Shown here one piece after another: positions 29,449-37,734 of a DNA stretch of 64,000 nt. Under the pieces are notes generated by a model. That model did not search any database. It had not been told where the DNA came from and saw only the letters and a list, made by a program, of their open reading frames with translations. Both the position numbers and the translations under genes were made by a program. The DNA comes from Parashewanella tropica (GTDB taxonomy: Bacteria > Pseudomonadota > Gammaproteobacteria > Enterobacterales > Shewanellaceae): positions 2,924,001-2,988,000 of the forward strand of contig NZ_CP037951.1 in NCBI RefSeq assembly GCF_004358445.1, written 5' to 3'. Within the stretch, counting starts at the first letter, position 1; each line of letters opens with the position of its first letter.

Positions 29449-29470
29449 CAACCACTATATATTGTGGTTG
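29449..29470. promoter_or_regulatory. Palindrome upstream of the M16 protease gene
   Basis: CAACCAC and GTGGTTG are separated by 8 AT-only bases, about 40 bases before the chosen start of the protease gene. It looks like an operator or a small leader hairpin. The regulator is unknown. Confidence 0.35.
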
Positions 29471-29506
29471 GACTCTTTTGCGCTCTCACACTTACAGGAA
29501 CAATCA

Positions 29507-32299
29507 TTGACCACTGAATCATGTTCAATCATCACCAGTCCCAATGATCATCGTCAGTACCGATTTATTACACTGGCAAATGAACTCAAGGTGCTTTTGA
29601 TACAAGATGAAAAAACCAACCAATCAGCAGTATCTATGGCTGTTAATGTTGGTCATTTCGACGACCCTGAAGATCGTGAAGGCATGGCTCATTTTCTCGA
29701 GCACATGTTATTTCTAGGTACTGAAAAATATCCCAAGTGCGGCGAATTTAATGAGTTCGTGAATCAATATGGTGGTAGTAATAACGCGTGGACAGGAAGC
29801 GAACACACCAACTTTTTGTCTTCAATCGCACCTGAACATTTCGCAGGATTGCTTGATCGCTTTAGTCAATTTTTTATCTCCCCACTGTTTGATCCTGAAT
29901 ATGTGGAGCGTGAACGAAACGCCATAGAGTCCGAATTCAGTTTGAAACTAAAAGACGACGTTAGACGCGTTTACGAAATAGAAAAAGAAACCTGTAATCC
30001 CAAGCATCCATTTACACAGTTTTCTGTTGGTAATTTGGTTACATTAGGCGGGGACGAGAACGAATTAAGGCAAGAGCTTTTAGCGTTTTATCACAGTAAA
30101 TACAGCGCCAACATTATGACGTTGTGTTTGATTGCACCTAACGCTTTAGATGAGCTTGAAGCACTTGCCCACAAATTCTTCTCTGATATTAAAAATCAAT
30201 TTGTGCATAAAAGCTATCCTAAAGTGCCTCTATATGACCAGCAACAATTACAAAAAAGGATCAGTATTGTTCCAGTAAAAAGCCAACGTCGATTAACCAT
30301 TAGTTTTTTATTACCCAATATTGAAAAGCATTACCCAAGAAAGCCGCTTACTTTTATCAGCCATTTATTGGGCAACGAAACCAAGGGCAGTTTGCTTTCA
30401 TATTTAAAGTCGAAAGGTTGGGTAAACAACCTCTCATCAGGCGGAGGAGCCTCAGGTTATAACTTCAAAGATTTTTCCATTCTGTTCCAGCTTACCGCAG
30501 AAGGGCTAGAGCATATTGATGAAATTACGATTGCCACCTTCGAATATTTGGAGCTAATCAAACAAGAAGGTATTGAGGATTGGCGTTATCAAGAAAGGGC
30601 AAACTTACTTCAACAAGCCTTTGATTACCAAGAACCCGTTAAAGCTATCGAGCTGGTTAGTCACCTAAGCATCAACTTACAACACTACCCTGTTGAAGAT
30701 GTGATTTATGGTGATTATCGTATGAATGGTTTATTTGAATCAGAAACCAATACCTTGTTGGCTCAATTAAAGCCCGAAAATATGCGTTTACAAGTTATTG
30801 CACCTGAAGTTGAAGCTCAAATTTGCAGTAAATGGTACAAAGCCGAATATCGAGTTGATGATATTAACCAATGGCTAATACAAAGATGCAAAAGTCCGCA
30901 TGTAAGGGCTGAATTAACCCTTCCTGCGCCCAATCCATTTATCATTGAAAAAGCTCGGCCTAGGCTTACCGATTACCCACACACCACCCCAACGATTTTA
31001 AAAGATGGAAAAGGGTTTAGGCTTTGGTATCAAAAAGACCAGCAATTTAATGTACCCAAAGGACATATCTATTTAGCCATCGACTCTTTATACGCTTGCG
31101 ACACGTTAACGCATGCGGCTTATACTCGCTTATACATAGAAATGGTATTGGATTACCTTACCGAATTTACTTACGATGCTGAAGTTGCAGGTATCCATTA
31201 TCATATCTATCCACACCAAGCCGGACTTACACTTCATATCAGCGGCTTTACCATCAAACAACTAGACTTGCTTAAATTAATCATAGAAAAAGCTCGAGAG
31301 CGTAATTTTTGTCAAACAAGATTTCAGCGTGTTACCAAACAACTGATTAGAAATTGGCGAAACATCAGTAACACTCGCCCTATTTCTCAACTATTTTCAG
31401 CCTTAACGTCAACCGTTCAGTTAAGGAGTTATGAACCAATAAAACTAGCAGAAATCATTGAACATGCGAATCTAGAGCTGCTTCATCAGCACGTGGAACG
31501 ATTCTATCAAGCCACATATTTAGAAGGTTTCTTATACGGTGATTATTTACAAGAAGAAGCCAAAGATATTAGTGAACACTTAAGCGAAGTTTTAGATCTT
31601 GTGTCTGCGCCAAGCCCTGAAACTGAAAGAGAACTTGTTAACTTGAAGGGACAAGGCACTTTAGTAAGTAAAATTGATACCGAGCATCAAGACAGTGCCA
31701 TTTTAGTCTACTTTCAATCAGAGCATACCAGCATTGAAAACATGGCACTATTTAGCCTTTTAAACCACACAATGTCTTCGTCGTTTTTTCATGAATTAAG
31801 AACTCAAAAACAACTCGGCTATATGGTAGGTACTAACTACCTTCCACTTAACCGCCATCCGGGAATGATTTTTTACATTCAATCCCCTAATAGTGGTCCC
31901 CAAATTTTATTAGATGAAATTGATAACTTCATAAGTGACTTTTCATACACAGTCATGCAACTGACAGATGCACAGTGGCGACAAACAAAAGATGGATTAA
32001 TCAGCCAATTGATGGAACATGACCCAAATCTCAAAACCCGAAGCCAGCGCTATTGGACCAGCATTGGCAATAAGGACTATGAGTTTAATCAACGCGAACA
32101 GGTTGTGAATGAAATATCGCAACTGACCAGAGCTGAGCTGATTCGCTTTTTAATCGACAAGATGAAAACAAATTCAAAAGACAGAGTTGTGTTATATAGC
32201 TGCGGTGCAGAACATCAAGAATATGAAATCATGGCATCTGAACTCATTCCTAAAGATTTAGACACATTTAAACAGAACTCAGTACGGTTTACTTTATAG
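29507..32299 (+). CDS. Insulinase-family zinc metalloprotease (M16, pitrilysin-like)
   Basis: This is a large (about 930-residue) M16A protease. The inverted zinc motif HFLEH is in EGMAHFLEHMLFLGTEKYP, and the downstream glutamate is in ERERNAIESEF. The four-domain length is that of pitrilysin/protease III and insulysin, which degrade peptides inside a closed chamber. No clear signal peptide is seen, so it may be cytoplasmic, unlike the periplasmic E. coli Ptr. I chose the TTG at 29507, preceded by AGGAA at a 7-base spacing, over the TTG at 29462 that lies within a palindrome; this is uncertain by 15 residues. Confidence 0.9.
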   Translation: MTTESCSIITSPNDHRQYRFITLANELKVLLIQDEKTNQSAVSMAVNVGHFDDPEDREGMAHFLEHMLFLGTEKYPKCGEFNEFVNQYGGSNNAWTGSEHTNFLSSIAPEHFAGLLDRFSQFFISPLFDPEYVERERNAIESEFSLKLKDDVRRVYEIEKETCNPKHPFTQFSVGNLVTLGGDENELRQELLAFYHSKYSANIMTLCLIAPNALDELEALAHKFFSDIKNQFVHKSYPKVPLYDQQQLQKRISIVPVKSQRRLTISFLLPNIEKHYPRKPLTFISHLLGNETKGSLLSYLKSKGWVNNLSSGGGASGYNFKDFSILFQLTAEGLEHIDEITIATFEYLELIKQEGIEDWRYQERANLLQQAFDYQEPVKAIELVSHLSINLQHYPVEDVIYGDYRMNGLFESETNTLLAQLKPENMRLQVIAPEVEAQICSKWYKAEYRVDDINQWLIQRCKSPHVRAELTLPAPNPFIIEKARPRLTDYPHTTPTILKDGKGFRLWYQKDQQFNVPKGHIYLAIDSLYACDTLTHAAYTRLYIEMVLDYLTEFTYDAEVAGIHYHIYPHQAGLTLHISGFTIKQLDLLKLIIEKARERNFCQTRFQRVTKQLIRNWRNISNTRPISQLFSALTSTVQLRSYEPIKLAEIIEHANLELLHQHVERFYQATYLEGFLYGDYLQEEAKDISEHLSEVLDLVSAPSPETERELVNLKGQGTLVSKIDTEHQDSAILVYFQSEHTSIENMALFSLLNHTMSSSFFHELRTQKQLGYMVGTNYLPLNRHPGMIFYIQSPNSGPQILLDEIDNFISDFSYTVMQLTDAQWRQTKDGLISQLMEHDPNLKTRSQRYWTSIGNKDYEFNQREQVVNEISQLTRAELIRFLIDKMKTNSKDRVVLYSCGAEHQEYEIMASELIPKDLDTFKQNSVRFTL

Positions 32300-32509: not shown

Positions 32510-35500
32510 ATGCATTTCAGACACATTTGTGCCTTGTTGTTACTCATCCTTTCAGGGACCATTTATGCTTCGGACAACGTCGTAGAAGCCTCCCCAACAC
32601 AACCAACATCAACAGCTGAACAAAAAACAGACGAATCAGTTTCTGATGATGAATCTGATCTCATAGAGATCCCCGAATCTCATATCATTCTTAACACTGA
32701 AACTTATGGTGTTGCCGAGGGATTGTCGCAGAGTACGGTGACTTCTATCGTTGAAGATAAAGACGGCTTTTTGTGGGTAGGTACAGTTAATGGTCTAAAC
32801 CGTTTTGACGGGACAGAGTTTACTCATTATTACGCTGGCGAAAGTGGGCTACCAAGCTCGTTTATTCGCAGTTTGTTTGTAGATGATGATGGCACTTTGT
32901 GGGTTGGTACAAACTCAGGCCTATTTCAATATATGGCAAGAAAAAATAAATTTAGTGAGATAAAATTAAAGAAGAGTCGTGAGCCAATATGGTCTATAAC
33001 TGGAGATAAGAACAACCTACTAATAACAACAGACAACTATGTCTACAAATTAAATAAAAACACAAAAAAACTCTTATCTATATTTAACTCTAAAGAATCG
33101 ATAGGAATACGAAAGTCTTTCGAGTTCAACGATAACCTTTATATTTTAACATACTCAAATAATTTATACTCGATAATCAATGACAAAAAAACGTTTATAG
33201 ACGAGAATGTAAATGACATTTCAAAACTAAACAACGCCTTATTCTTTGCGACTAAAGAAGGAGTTTTTAAAATTGAAAACAAAAAGAAATCAAAAATATC
33301 TAGCAACACCTACATCAAATTAGCTAAAGATCAGCATTTATATGGAGTCAACCAAAGAAGTATCCATAATTTATCAGAAAAAAAGAACATTGGGCATTTC
33401 AAAAAAACAAACTCATCAATTATTTTATTCAAAGTAAAAAAACAAAGTTTTCAAATTGGAACAATTGATGATGGATACAAATCCATATCTATCAAAAATA
33501 ATTTAATAAACAAAACGAACTTAGCTTTTGATTCAATTTGGGGCTTAGCAAAAAGTGATCATAATATTTATTTTTCAAGTAATGACAGCGATATTGAAAA
33601 GGTAAACAATGATCTATCTAACAAATCTAGTATAAATTCCAATATTGAAGGTTATAAATATTTAAGTTTATTCAAAAATAGATTATTTATAGGTTCTAAA
33701 CATGGATTACATTACATTATTGATGGAAATTCAACACAGGTTCTATCTAAAAAAGTCACATCATTAACATCTAATAAAAACACTCTTCTTATCGGAACAA
33801 GCGATGGATTTTTGTACACCCTTGATAAGTCACTTCAAATTAAAAGTCGCCAAATAATAAAGAATAGACCAATTTTCGATATTGAAGAACACAGTAACTC
33901 TATATATATAGCAACTGAATCAGGACTGTTTTTAAAAATAAAAAACAATTTAAAAACAATACATCCTGGAGTTGTAAACCAAATTTGTTCAAATAAAAAA
34001 AACATTTATTTCAGCTCAGATAATTTTTTGTTTTCTTATTCTCACGCCACTAAAAAAACACAAAAAATCATTCCAACCGAAGGGAAGTTAAATGCCCTAT
34101 ATTGTGATAACAAAATAATATTAGCAACCAACTACAACAACGTGCTTTTATTTAAAAATAAAAGACTGATGACTTTTGGTGTCAATTCCGGAGGTCAAAC
34201 TGAATACAACAAATCTCCAATACTAAAAACAAGCGATGATAACTTTCTGATATCTGGCATAGAAGGAGTATCGCAGTTCAATTTAAAAAAAATAAATAAT
34301 CACATTAATAAAAAAATAAAACCCAAGGCGGCAATATCATCTATATCCGTTTTTAACAAAAGAGTTGAAGGGAAAAATAAACACTTTAGCGGTTCATCAT
34401 ACAATACAAAAACAATTACTTTTAATTATTTGGATTATCCTTTCACTCTAAGGTTCACTTCAAATGACAACGAAGGTCGATTTGAATATATGATGAAAGG
34501 AATCGATAGCAAATGGATAATAGCAAATGGTCATAACTCTGCGACTTATACTAATATCCCTCCAGGTGAATATTTATTTCAAGTAGTTGCTTTTGATTCA
34601 TTGACTAAAGAGCGTGGAGATATTAATTCAATAAAAATTATCATTACCCCACCTTGGTGGCTTAGTACAAAAGCCAAAATGGGGTATTTTATTTTTGTAC
34701 TCATCCTATTGATTTTATTTTTGAAACTATTTCAAAGACGCCGAGAAATACAAAAGCAAATAGCTCTTAGTGAAGAACGTTTAATGCTTTCTCTATGGGG
34801 CAGTGGTGATGAAATGTGGGACTGGGATATACGCTCAGGTAAAATTTTCCGCTCAAATGTATGGCAAAGCTTGAACTTTCCTGAAATAGGCCAGCGTGCA
34901 GAGGGTGAAGCTCAAGGTCACAATATCCATCCTATGGATAGAAAGCATGTTAACGACATGCTGAGCGAGCATTTAAACGCTGGTACTGATATTTTTGAAG
35001 TTCCTTATAGGGTCAAAGATATTAAAGGTAATTGGATTTGGATTTTAGACCGTGCAAGAGTCGTTGAGCGTGAAGATGATGGTTCACCTGTTCGTATGAC
35101 AGGAACCATAAAAAACATTAATGATTTTAAGCGGAACGAGGAGCAATTAAAACTGTTTGGTACGGCTATTGAAAATATTTCTGAGGGTATGTTTATTCTT
35201 GATGCTGACTTTCAGTTTATCGAGGTCAATTCAGCTTGTAGTAAAATAATGCGTTGCTCAAATGAAAACATCATAGGCAGAAAACTTAAGTTTACTCAAT
35301 ACCCTGATAGCTTTACTCAACAAGTTAAGCACATGCTAACTAACTATGGACGCTGGACCAGTGAGGTAGATGCAATTCGTGATGATGGTAGCATCTATAA
35401 AATGGATGTCAGCATTGATACCATTTATGATCATAGGGGAAACACCAGTCATTTTGTTGCCATTTTCTCTGATGTGACCATTAAAAAAGCGCAAGAACAA

Positions 35501-36799
35501 GAAATGCGTCAAATGGCATCTACTGACAACCTAACAGGGTTGCCTAACCGCGATAGTCTACAACTAACATTAACAAGCCTTGTTACACGTAAAGCCCGTC
35601 ATTCATTACTAGTTTTGGATATTGATAACTTTAAGAAAATCAATGATTCATTAGGTCATGCCTTCGGTGATGAATTGCTGGTGCAAGTATCGCTTCGAAT
35701 GACCGAAGCTTTAGATGGCGATGCCACTCTTTATCGTCTCGGAGGTGATGAGTTTGCCATTGTTATCGAAAAACTGACTGATATTAACCATATTGCCGCA
35801 GTTGCAAGTCGAATCATTGACACTTTTGTCCAGCCCATAGCTTTAAAAACTCACCAAGCTGTTGTTGGAGCGAGTATTGGGATTGTTCATTATCCCGATG
35901 ATGAAACTAACGAACATGATCTACTAAGATCCGCAGAAATTGCCATGTATTCAGCCAAATCGAATGGTGGTAACAGTTTCAATTTCTACCAAGAATCTGA
36001 AAATGCTGGTGCGATTCGTCAGCTAGAAGTTGAAAACCTTATTAGAGAAGCATTAGAAAAAAATTACTTTGAAGTGTACTACCAACCAAAAATTTCATTA
36101 AGCAGCAATAAAATGGTGGGAATGGAAGCCTTAGTAAGACTGATTCATCCAACTGAAGGTTTTATCTCTCCAGCAGAATTTATTCCAATTGCTGAAGAAA
36201 CAGGGCTTATTGTAGAAATTGGCGAAATTGTACTTAGCAAAGCGTGTAATGCCACCCAAAAATGGGTTGAAAAATATGGATTCAATGGTCGAGTTGCAGT
36301 AAACCTGTCTTCTAGACAATTTGCCTTGCCTGATCTTGAGAGAAGAATTACGCAAGTGCTGAAGTATTCTGAACTTGATTCAAAACACCTTGAAATTGAG
36401 ATTACTGAAAGCACTGTGATTCAAGATCCAGTACAGGCGATCAAAGTCATGACTAAACTCCGTAATATGGGCATCCACTTAGCTTTAGATGACTTTGGCA
36501 CTGGTTATTCATCTTTGACCTATTTGAAAGACTTTCCAATTTCTACCATTAAAATCGACAAATCCTTTATCGATGATATCGATAAATCTGATCGTGATTT
36601 AAAAATGGTCGACTCTATTATCACTATAGCTCACAATATGGGTATTTCAGTAGTTGCAGAAGGAGTGGAGCATCGAAGCCAATTAATTGCCTTACGTGCA
36701 CTAAATTGCGAGGAAATACAAGGATACTTCTATAGTAAACCAATACCAGAAAATGAATATGCACAGTTTCTTAACAAAAGACGGATTATCACTTTTTAA
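32510..36799 (+). CDS. Propeller-sensor/PAS/GGDEF/EAL membrane protein (cyclic-di-GMP turnover)
   Basis: This is a 1429-residue inner-membrane signalling protein. Order: signal peptide (residues 1-20); a periplasmic beta-propeller of two-component-regulator type (about 55-600, with repeats such as DGFLWVGTVNGLNRFDG and DGTLWVGTNSGLFQY); a Y_Y_Y domain (about 635-715, ending PPWWLS); one transmembrane helix (about 718-738); two PAS domains (about 755-1000); GGDEF (motif intact, RLGGDEFAIVIE near 1077); and EAL (motif intact, GMEALVRLIHP near 1204, with DDFGTGYSSLTYLKDFP). Both c-di-GMP synthase and phosphodiesterase motifs look catalytically complete. The middle of the propeller is very rich in Lys/Asn/Ile and in A+T compared with the rest. 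A secreted repeat-peptide gene lies just downstream, 116 bases away. Confidence 0.92.
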   Translation: MHFRHICALLLLILSGTIYASDNVVEASPTQPTSTAEQKTDESVSDDESDLIEIPESHIILNTETYGVAEGLSQSTVTSIVEDKDGFLWVGTVNGLNRFDGTEFTHYYAGESGLPSSFIRSLFVDDDGTLWVGTNSGLFQYMARKNKFSEIKLKKSREPIWSITGDKNNLLITTDNYVYKLNKNTKKLLSIFNSKESIGIRKSFEFNDNLYILTYSNNLYSIINDKKTFIDENVNDISKLNNALFFATKEGVFKIENKKKSKISSNTYIKLAKDQHLYGVNQRSIHNLSEKKNIGHFKKTNSSIILFKVKKQSFQIGTIDDGYKSISIKNNLINKTNLAFDSIWGLAKSDHNIYFSSNDSDIEKVNNDLSNKSSINSNIEGYKYLSLFKNRLFIGSKHGLHYIIDGNSTQVLSKKVTSLTSNKNTLLIGTSDGFLYTLDKSLQIKSRQIIKNRPIFDIEEHSNSIYIATESGLFLKIKNNLKTIHPGVVNQICSNKKNIYFSSDNFLFSYSHATKKTQKIIPTEGKLNALYCDNKIILATNYNNVLLFKNKRLMTFGVNSGGQTEYNKSPILKTSDDNFLISGIEGVSQFNLKKINNHINKKIKPKAAISSISVFNKRVEGKNKHFSGSSYNTKTITFNYLDYPFTLRFTSNDNEGRFEYMMKGIDSKWIIANGHNSATYTNIPPGEYLFQVVAFDSLTKERGDINSIKIIITPPWWLSTKAKMGYFIFVLILLILFLKLFQRRREIQKQIALSEERLMLSLWGSGDEMWDWDIRSGKIFRSNVWQSLNFPEIGQRAEGEAQGHNIHPMDRKHVNDMLSEHLNAGTDIFEVPYRVKDIKGNWIWILDRARVVEREDDGSPVRMTGTIKNINDFKRNEEQLKLFGTAIENISEGMFILDADFQFIEVNSACSKIMRCSNENIIGRKLKFTQYPDSFTQQVKHMLTNYGRWTSEVDAIRDDGSIYKMDVSIDTIYDHRGNTSHFVAIFSDVTIKKAQEQEMRQMASTDNLTGLPNRDSLQLTLTSLVTRKARHSLLVLDIDNFKKINDSLGHAFGDELLVQVSLRMTEALDGDATLYRLGGDEFAIVIEKLTDINHIAAVASRIIDTFVQPIALKTHQAVVGASIGIVHYPDDETNEHDLLRSAEIAMYSAKSNGGNSFNFYQESENAGAIRQLEVENLIREALEKNYFEVYYQPKISLSSNKMVGMEALVRLIHPTEGFISPAEFIPIAEETGLIVEIGEIVLSKACNATQKWVEKYGFNGRVAVNLSSRQFALPDLERRITQVLKYSELDSKHLEIEITESTVIQDPVQAIKVMTKLRNMGIHLALDDFGTGYSSLTYLKDFPISTIKIDKSFIDDIDKSDRDLKMVDSIITIAHNMGISVVAEGVEHRSQLIALRALNCEEIQGYFYSKPIPENEYAQFLNKRRIITF

Positions 36800-36857: not shown

Positions 36858-36874
36858 TTGGCACAGCATCTGCA
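36858..36874 (+). promoter_or_regulatory. Sigma-54-type promoter upstream of the repeat-peptide gene
   Basis: TTGGCACAGCATCTGCA matches the -24/-12 consensus YTGGCACGRNNNTTGCW at all but two positions and keeps the exact GG-N10-GC spacing. Transcription would start near 36885, giving a leader of about 30 bases. A TTGACA at 36846-36851 is also present but has no good -10 at the right distance. Confidence 0.6.
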
Positions 36875-36915
36875 TTAGATTCTTATCAATAAACTTAATA
36901 TCTGAGAAACCTAAA

Positions 36916-37215
36916 ATGAAAAAAGTTACTACCTTCATCACTATTGCACTATCCCTATCTTTTGCTCCATCCTTAGTTATTGCAGCAGACCCTACTATTA
37001 GGCTAAAACCAACGCAGTTAGCTGCCGACCCAACTATCAGATTGAAACCTGCTTTGTTTGCTGCTGACCCTACTATCAGGCTAAAACCAACTCAGTTGGC
37101 AGCCGACCCGACTATCAGATTGAAACCAGCTTTACTTGCTGCTGACCCAACTATCAGATTAAAGCCAGCTCTCCTTGCAGCCGATCCAACTATCAGACTC
37201 GCTCAAACTGCCTAA
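36916..37215 (+). CDS. Secreted tandem-repeat peptide precursor, six copies of ADPTIRL
   Basis: This is a 99-residue protein of a type I do not recognise. Residues 1-23 are a signal peptide (MKKVTTFITIALSLSFAPSLVIA). The rest is five perfect-length 13-residue units, ADPTIRLKP followed by TQLA, ALFA or ALLA, and a final ADPTIRLAQTA. Each unit boundary (hydrophobic residue, A, then ADPTIRL) resembles the predicted signal-peptidase cut, so the precursor could yield several nearly identical short peptides; that is inference. It could also stay whole as a small repeat protein. The codons of the repeats differ while the residues do not. A sigma-54-type promoter lies upstream, and a 38-residue gene follows 12 bases downstream with a strong ribosome site. 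Confidence 0.8.
   Translation: MKKVTTFITIALSLSFAPSLVIAADPTIRLKPTQLAADPTIRLKPALFAADPTIRLKPTQLAADPTIRLKPALLAADPTIRLKPALLAADPTIRLAQTA
36985..37212 (+). repeat. Tandem 39-bp coding repeat
   Basis: Five full 39-base units (36985-37179) and one partial unit encode the ADPTIRLKP repeats. Units vary mostly at third codon positions. There is no spacer, so this is not a CRISPR array. Confidence 0.9.
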
Positions 37216-37227
37216 AAGGAGCTTACC

Positions 37228-37344
37228 ATGCTAAGAAATATCCTTATCTCTATGGGTTTGGCAAAGCCGAAAACTCATAAAGTGAAGCTTCCTAAGGGCT
37301 TGAAGGAACTAGAAGTTGTTTCTGCAAAAGCTTGGTGGAACTAA
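37228..37344 (+). CDS. Small 38-residue protein downstream of the repeat precursor
   Basis: An ORF of 38 codons has AAGGAG 7 bases upstream of ATG, an excellent ribosome site. The product is basic in the middle (GLAKPKTHKVKLPKGLK), starts with a short hydrophobic stretch (NILISMGLA) and ends in AWWN. I recognise no family. It has no signal peptide. It is 12 bases from the precursor gene, so the two are almost certainly co-transcribed; it might be a partner, immunity or processing factor, or an independent peptide. A strong hairpin follows. Confidence 0.65.
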   Translation: MLRNILISMGLAKPKTHKVKLPKGLKELEVVSAKAWWN

Positions 37345-37365
37345 TTCCTACTCGGGATCATTATG

Positions 37366-37423
37366 AAAGCATCAGCGTTCGCTGAGGTAACATACCTCAG
37401 CGTAGCTGCTCTTTTAATGCTTT
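37366..37423 (+). terminator. Nested hairpin ending the repeat-peptide operon
   Basis: A perfect 10-bp stem CGCTGAGGTA/TACCTCAGCG with a 3-base loop (37380-37402) sits inside outer arms AAAGCAT/ATGCTTT. T-rich sequence follows the inner stem. It begins about 20 bases after the stop codon of the 38-residue gene. Confidence 0.6.
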
Positions 37424-37734
37424 ATCTTTACCCTATCTAAACGTCCCCACAAAACTATCTATAAAGCCAACTTTAAATAGCAATAACTCAAAAGCAATCA
37501 ACACTATAGCTCCCTTTATTCAACACAACCCTTTAAACTAAATCACCTAACTGCTAGCAGCGACACAGCGTTATTCCTAAGTATGCTAGGACATTATGAG
37601 TTTCATATTCTGTAATAAAGGCTCTGGATACCTGCCTTCGCAAGTATGACGAAAACTCTAAGACTGACTGAATAAACTGCCTATGTAGCTCCCACTCATA
37701 CCCCATTGATAATTAACAATAAATTTCCGCAAGG
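37424..37734. repeat. Non-coding gap with one degenerate REP-like palindrome
   Basis: No gene is supported. At 37628-37647 ATACCTGC and GCAAGTAT flank CTTC (one mismatch), followed by GACGAAAA; this resembles the widespread GGATACCTGC...GTATGACG palindromic repeats of gammaproteobacteria. Nothing else stands out. Confidence 0.45.

Follow-up and report, generated by a model that had tools for sequence, protein, structure and literature searches.

Peptide quorum sensing in Gram-positive bacteria is exemplified by ComQXP and Agr, which combine a histidine kinase with single-copy precursors and an enzyme for processing or modification. Gram-positive bacteria are also the main known source of linear peptide pheromones that have dedicated receptors, and the signals of many c-di-GMP enzymes are unknown. 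The yeast alpha-factor precursor is eukaryotic; it is processed by Kex2, and the receptor is a GPCR. With these systems we compared a locus of Parashewanella tropica contained in a stretch of 64,000 nt (here called the window), which is carried by a 4.22-Mb genome in one contig. The features of the locus are collected in Table 1. In the open-access papers searched, among them PMC10723142, PMC4168976 and PMC3409153, no account of this system was found.

Table 1. Features of the sensor-precursor locus, with positions counted from the first letter of the window.
Feature	Position	Strand	Basis
Sensor gene, encoding the putative receptor: Reg_prop propeller and Y_Y_Y, a single TM helix (about residues 720-742), PAS domains, GGDEF, EAL	32510..36799	+	Pfam, hydropathy scan
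Hypervariable periplasmic ectodomain of the sensor, about residues 110-715	32840..34655	+	Sliding-window distance, DNA identity
Conserved output domains GGDEF (1003-1155) and EAL (1177-1411)	35516..36742	+	Pfam; pairwise distances
Predicted sigma-54 -24/-12 promoter TTGGCACAGCATCTGCA, TTGGCAC-N5-CTGCA	36858..36874	+	Direct reading; comparison of loci
5' leader with ATCAA and a weak hairpin in the window copy	36875..36915	+	Leader comparison, folding
Putative signal peptide MKKVTTFITIALSLSFAPSLVIA, boundary by eye	36916..36984	+	Sequence, without a predictor run
Six peptide units: five ADPTIRLKPxxxA, then ADPTIRLAQTA	36985..37212	+	Sequence; copy comparison
Precursor gene A, 99 aa	36916..37215	+	ORF, comparison of loci
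Ribosome-binding site AGGAG of gene B	37217..37221	+	Direct reading
Partner gene B, 38 aa, C-terminus AKAWWN	37228..37344	+	ORF; homologues; no Pfam/NCBIfam match
10-bp hairpin 3' of gene B, possible terminator	37380..37402	+	Sequence; RNAfold; absent from terminator scan

The preliminary description of this DNA had proposed a sigma-54-controlled unit of two small genes, the first encoding a signal-peptide-like protein of ADPTIRL repeats and the second a short partner with its own ribosome site, closed by a terminal hairpin. Both ORFs, the ribosome site and the promoter box were read as proposed. The array in gene A consists of five 13-residue units and a shorter sixth, all sharing ADPTIRL exactly, and by eye the end of the signal peptide (VIA/ADP) coincides with the unit boundary (LLA/ADP). 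The hairpin stood as a structure, with a perfect 10-bp stem that is strong by RNAfold and kept in the nearest relative, a 3-nt loop, and TCTTTT 7 nt further on; its role as a terminator fared less well, as the terminators found by the terminator scan do not include it. A 25-residue ORF (MKASAFAEV.., 37363-37440) runs across this presumed terminator, and its start is kept in Parashewanella curva. Genes A and B gave no Pfam or NCBIfam match above cut-off. AlphaFold models were too weak to use, both for the window precursor by itself (mean pLDDT 45.6) and for gene B by itself (65.8, helices 3-9 and 23-35).

With precursor A as query no related locus was found, presumably because the unit changes between species, and gene B was the usable probe. 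Gene B was detected in 132 of 152 Shewanellaceae genomes (E up to 0.1), in 39 of the 394 genomes sampled from the order (30 in the family, five in family f15, four in family f20) and in one of the 369 sampled from the class, the window's own. Loci were fetched for 115 of the 132 genomes, the remaining 17 being left out. Directly upstream of B, 112 of these 115 loci have an array with three or more copies, and in 111 the ORF at this place has at least three P-x-[VIL]-[KR] motifs. The other four comprise G020 with six copies of GLPWIEN..., G117 with one copy, and G062 and G111, where the contig ends near B. The two-gene unit of a secreted repeat-peptide precursor and its partner, put forward from a single sequence, is supported by this comparison of loci. 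Homologues with the same pair of genes exist, contrary to what would have refuted the preliminary description. In some Shewanella gene B stands twice in tandem (L025, L049, L059, L071, L087 and others). One gene-B match beside those of Ferrimonas comes from a record titled Marinobacter nauticus (L352), possibly a mislabelled genome.

Twenty genomes of the family are without detectable B. Six of them have no propeller match at 1e-20, two have a weak one only, and 12 have a clear sensor; B was undetected in all eight genomes without a clear sensor match, some of whose assemblies are fragmented or incomplete. In 11 of the 12 genomes with a sensor, a sigma-54 site followed by a secreted-type precursor, repeated or single-copy, was read in frame (partly masked in G014 and G010, cut by the contig end in G009), and four of these 11 have a diverged B ending in AGSWWS. 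In the twelfth (G011) neither a sigma-54 box nor a precursor was recognised. Single-copy precursors occur in G117 and in five loci of the genomes without detected B: four Shewanella genomes encode a 59-aa secreted-type precursor with one core-like end (e.g. RFPIVIF, without K/R), and one Ferrimonas-type genome a 44-aa precursor with the single core-like end AGTPWLGG. A copy number that goes down to one argues for a peptide rather than a polymer.

The sensor gene lies upstream in 20 of 20 long loci of the family (split into two ORFs in L043) and upstream of gene B in nine of nine loci from two other families, that is in all 29 loci read at length. A fadJ-like ORF lies downstream in 17 of the 20 long family loci, and the nine outgroup loci have the same arrangement as far as the sequence reaches; the names fadJ, fadI and MoxR were given by eye from the sequences, without a family search. 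An opposite-strand small membrane protein often lies in between at the relatives' loci, and no such ORF is among those listed for the window. Just upstream of the sensor the window encodes an M16-family peptidase (Pfam, 29462-32299), a candidate for peptide turnover, with a TTG start and no evident signal peptide; the end of a similar gene was seen by eye at the same place in L044 and L045. A ribosomally synthesised, modified peptide (RiPP) was also considered and set aside: no maturase-like gene was recognised by eye among the linked ORFs of 20 family loci of about 10 kb.

By comparison of loci the predicted sigma-54 promoter is real. At the same place all 98 testable loci (readable start and at least 120 nt upstream), the window included, carry a box scoring at least 13.8 of 16.6 on a consensus whose weights were assigned by hand, and 93 of them reach at least 14. 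Mononucleotide shuffles reached 14 in none of 1960 cases and 13 in 0.6%. Outside the family a strict sigma-54 box was found in just four of nine loci. The leader contains GTCAA in 86 of 99 loci, against 6.5 expected, and in 78 it stands 14-15 nt past the -12 box. Leaders fold slightly better than shuffled sequences (mean z -1.6; z below -1 in 57 of 99), and in some relatives a hairpin covers the ribosome site. The window leader departs from its relatives, with ATCAA for GTCAA and a weak hairpin. Upstream of the promoter, the most frequent 7-mers (at most 57 of 99 loci) resemble the coding end of the sensor itself. In five of five genomes the combination of GTCAA with this promoter had a single match, at this locus, while a reversed control pattern matched once in two of them; a looser pattern gave four matches in the genome of the window. 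The FleQ box of the c-di-GMP-responsive enhancer-binding proteins FleQ and FlrA contains GTCAAT/ATTGAC (PMC10723142). GTCAA at its fixed place in the leaders resembles this box, but matches a half site only, and FleQ-type control of the promoter may be taken as a lead only.

The peptide units are variable between genomes and locked within them. Of 107 arrays, 97 have a period of 13, five of 9, three of 15, one of 11 and one of 14; an array has 4 to 40 copies, and there are 89 distinct consensus units. The unit has the form xxPx[VI][KR]x with a variable tail that closes with Ala. The array of G085 has the unit GHPYVKFKPFEVA, and related genomes have units such as GHPAVKFKPFEVA and AAPNVRFKPVELA. 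In the 97 period-13 arrays the consensus always has Pro at position 3, which was part of the copy-search motif together with positions 5 and 6, and Ala at position 13, which was outside it; the motif is missing from seven of 1403 in-phase copies. Positions 2, 4 and 7 of these arrays take 9-10 residue types between genomes, yet copies within an array agree at 0.98-0.99. Within-array pN is 0.025 versus a pS of 0.30 (107 arrays, four of 111 with fewer than three regular units being left out), and pN is below pS in 105 of the 107. At positions 1, 2, 4 and 7, which lie outside the copy search, pN is 0.012 and pS 0.386, with pN zero in 86 arrays. Copies of the window differ at 0.68-0.69 per synonymous site. 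Because the copies are locked in amino acids despite their synonymous differences, selection, and not recent copying alone, keeps them identical. The first 18 residues of the precursor also follow the peptide type, with a distance of 0.05 for the same core and 0.257 for different cores at a cytoplasmic distance of up to 0.02.

Other precursor forms were seen in the outgroup families. Upstream of gene B in L166-L169 (family f20) there are arrays whose precursor ends right after the core (RIQIRI, RIPVRF, RVIIRY, HIPIRF), which suggests that the core itself is the active end. Between sensor and B, L170-L174 (family f15) have short ORFs with a hydrophobic start and no Pro motif but with ends of similar appearance (such as IEDQVGL, twice in L172; IEEGVAI; TDEEVGI); these ORFs probably represent the same system with another peptide type. 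Matches on plasmids (Enterococcus, Pseudomonas) to further repeat proteins were treated as analogues and not used. One of the analogues, which looks unrelated, is a Pseudomonas asturiensis plasmid protein (L008, 3899-4285) with a signal-peptide-like start and 13-residue repeats AADGADRVGANRV.

The sensor of the window has 1429 aa, and its GGDEF, EALVR and DDFGTG motifs are intact. From 81 extracted sensors, 12 with an ORF of less than 1200 residues were dropped and 69 were aligned, 68 of them with a peptide unit; the GGDEF/EAL motifs are intact in all 69. The mean pairwise distance in this set is 0.72 in the propeller (residues 250-640), 0.50 in Y_Y_Y, 0.28 in PAS, 0.26 in GGDEF and 0.15 in EAL, and the change from variable to constant coincides with the membrane helix. 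In a sliding window over eight hand-picked pairs with different peptides, the distance was 0.57-0.80 over residues 161-640 and at most 0.04 past residue 760.

We then asked whether the sensor follows the seven-residue peptide core. At a cytoplasmic distance of up to 0.035, the ectodomain distance averages 0.169 (maximum 0.361) in 14 pairs with the same core and 0.598 (minimum 0.407) in 31 pairs with different cores, the mean cytoplasmic distances being 0.013 and 0.018. Genome pairs are not independent. Peptide labels were shuffled within clusters, 2000 times at each of the thresholds 0.02, 0.035, 0.05, 0.07 and 0.10. The observed ectodomain correlation was reached by 13, 0, 0, 0 and 0 shuffles, respectively, and the corresponding counts were 638, 302, 127, 24 and 0 for PAS, 685, 96, 304, 52 and 0 for GGDEF, and 1841, 59, 112, 25 and 0 for EAL. 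In tight clusters a clear dependence on the peptide is confined to the periplasmic part (propeller and Y_Y_Y); kinship contributes as well, and in wide clusters it shows in all domains. At cytoplasmic distances of 0.05-0.10 the effect is weaker but present (0.47 in eight same-core pairs versus 0.61 in 135). The ectodomains are far apart in four of the 28 same-core pairs (G064/G127 0.593, G072/G102 0.63, G028/G067 0.542, G024/G068 0.754; all above 0.06 in cytoplasmic distance), and the receptor allele is thus not set by the core alone. Peptide residues 1-7 fit the ectodomain tree better, with 102 parsimony steps versus 119 for the cytoplasmic tree (neighbour-joining, no significance test). The nearest relative of the window by the cytoplasmic part of the sensor, and its sole close one, is G001 with the unit ATPKVRLIA; the ectodomains differ by 0.669 and the cytoplasmic parts by 0.086. 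The preliminary description had left the link to the upstream c-di-GMP gene undecided. With the two genes adjacent in every locus read at length and the ectodomain switching with the peptide, the Reg_prop/GGDEF/EAL gene is, on this comparative evidence, part of the system.

The two variable cassettes, ectodomain and peptide, are separated by about 2 kb of conserved DNA. In G060/G072 the two ectodomains share 55% DNA identity and the cytoplasmic parts 97%. Across the intergenic region together with the leader the value is 93%. Gene A begins with 36 nt at 97% identity and continues at 76%, and B plus its gap reaches 99%. The cytoplasmic protein parts of this pair are identical (distance 0.000), and the uncorrected pS jumps from 0.13-0.16 in the cytoplasmic part to 0.79 in the propeller, which points to recombination. 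G104/G134, G028/G149 and G074/G134 resemble this pattern, with B at 83-98%. Across the four different-peptide pairs the ectodomain is 50-55% and the 2-kb block 93-97% identical at the DNA level. The reverse case is G047/G114, with the same core, a propeller pS of 0.16 versus 0.63 in GGDEF-EAL, and DNA identities of 96% in the ectodomain and 86% in the cytoplasmic part. Pairs in the pS and DNA-identity comparisons were hand-picked, as were the sliding-window sets (8 and 6).

We put the probability at about three in four that the peptide is a polymorphic ligand of the adjacent c-di-GMP sensor, the two forming a pherotype-like pair that would tune c-di-GMP. Gene A would be the multi-copy precursor of a short secreted peptide, transcribed from the predicted sigma-54 promoter and exported by its putative signal peptide. 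Cleavage after Ala would release single peptides, and the sensor encoded just upstream would recognise the released peptide as its cognate ligand, at the periplasmic propeller. Once bound, the peptide would shift the balance of GGDEF and EAL and with it the c-di-GMP level, and it may signal between cells. Peptide and putative receptor ectodomain are polymorphic and switch together, apparently by recombination, and the cytoplasmic output, the promoter and gene B change far less, as in pherotype (self-recognition) systems. The peptide allele does track the sensor-domain allele above a conserved output domain, the four same-core pairs named above being the exceptions. By sequence (E down to 1e-47) the ectodomain has relatives of solved structure in PDB 3v9f, 4a2l, 3ott and 3va6. 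The likeness to these hybrid two-component sensors lies in the sequence-related ectodomain, and the difference is that they are named histidine-kinase/response-regulator hybrids. They come from Bacteroides, and no ligands other than sugars are known to us for them, which counts against a peptide ligand. We know of no linked hypervariable peptide for hybrid two-component sensors.

The conserved block between the cassettes bears on the reading that one hypervariable locus is swapped as a block, peptide and sensor having no contact. The genes are adjacent, and exchanged tracts could span both; but the block is nearly identical in the four different-peptide pairs while both of its flanks differ, and a joint switch of two tracts would have to be a coincidence. 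We consider such a linkage effect improbable. A signal peptide of Sec type would lead to the periplasm only, and no exporter gene was recognised by eye beside the precursor in the 20 long loci. The precursor may be a reporter of protease or envelope state whose fragments are read by the sensor in the producing cell itself. With a periplasmic self-cue of this kind it is hard to see why there should be so many species-specific alleles and why cassettes of them are exchanged, and we regard it as unlikely, though to be reckoned with.

That gene A encodes a structural protein of the surface or matrix, controlled by c-di-GMP, with the sensor monitoring its assembly, would suit the high copy numbers and the linked c-di-GMP gene. 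It is hard to reconcile with the single-copy precursors, in G117 and five loci without B, and with copies locked at positions that vary between species; the poor model of the window precursor says little. On balance it seems very improbable. A secreted-type variable peptide beside a small gene could likewise be a bacteriocin with gene B as immunity protein, and a partner of that kind would co-vary with the peptide. At cytoplasmic distances of up to 0.07, the distance in B is indeed larger for different-core pairs (0.141 in 117 pairs) than for same-core pairs (0.049 in 18), for which kinship alone may account; but in close pairs (up to 0.02) it hardly varies with the peptide, at 0.013 in ten same-core versus 0.021 in 19 different-core pairs. 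B was also undetected in the five single-copy loci, though present in the single-copy G117. We give the bacteriocin reading hardly any weight. Gene B is probably not a specificity determinant. Most likely, though this is a weak inference, it would help in export, processing or presentation of the peptide.

The sequences themselves point to a candidate ligand for a family of c-di-GMP sensors that is large and widely conserved, and the comparison of loci supplies natural allele pairs for specificity tests. A peptide and sensor paired in this way could explain how related Shewanella discriminate kin from non-kin in the choice between swimming and biofilm. We are evenly divided over the wider proposal that Gram-negative bacteria (Shewanella, Parashewanella, Ferrimonas and relatives) have a family of multi-copy peptide pheromones that is hypervariable, and in which the receptor would be a c-di-GMP enzyme, peptide/ectodomain cassettes would be swapped between species, and the change between motile and sessile life would be under kin-specific control without a kinase relay.

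The locus is like ComQXP and Agr in that a precursor stands beside its putative receptor, that peptide and sensor domain are polymorphic and linked, and that the output domain is conserved. It differs from them in the Reg_prop/GGDEF/EAL receptor, which ends in GGDEF and EAL, in the 4-40 copies of the 107 arrays, and in that no processing or modifying enzyme was recognised alongside by eye. The yeast alpha-factor precursor shares with gene A a signal peptide followed by tandem identical peptide copies, a likeness for which we claim no homology. Receptor type and precursor design differ, so that the system fits none of the polymorphic peptide pheromone systems tested, yet it resembles them.
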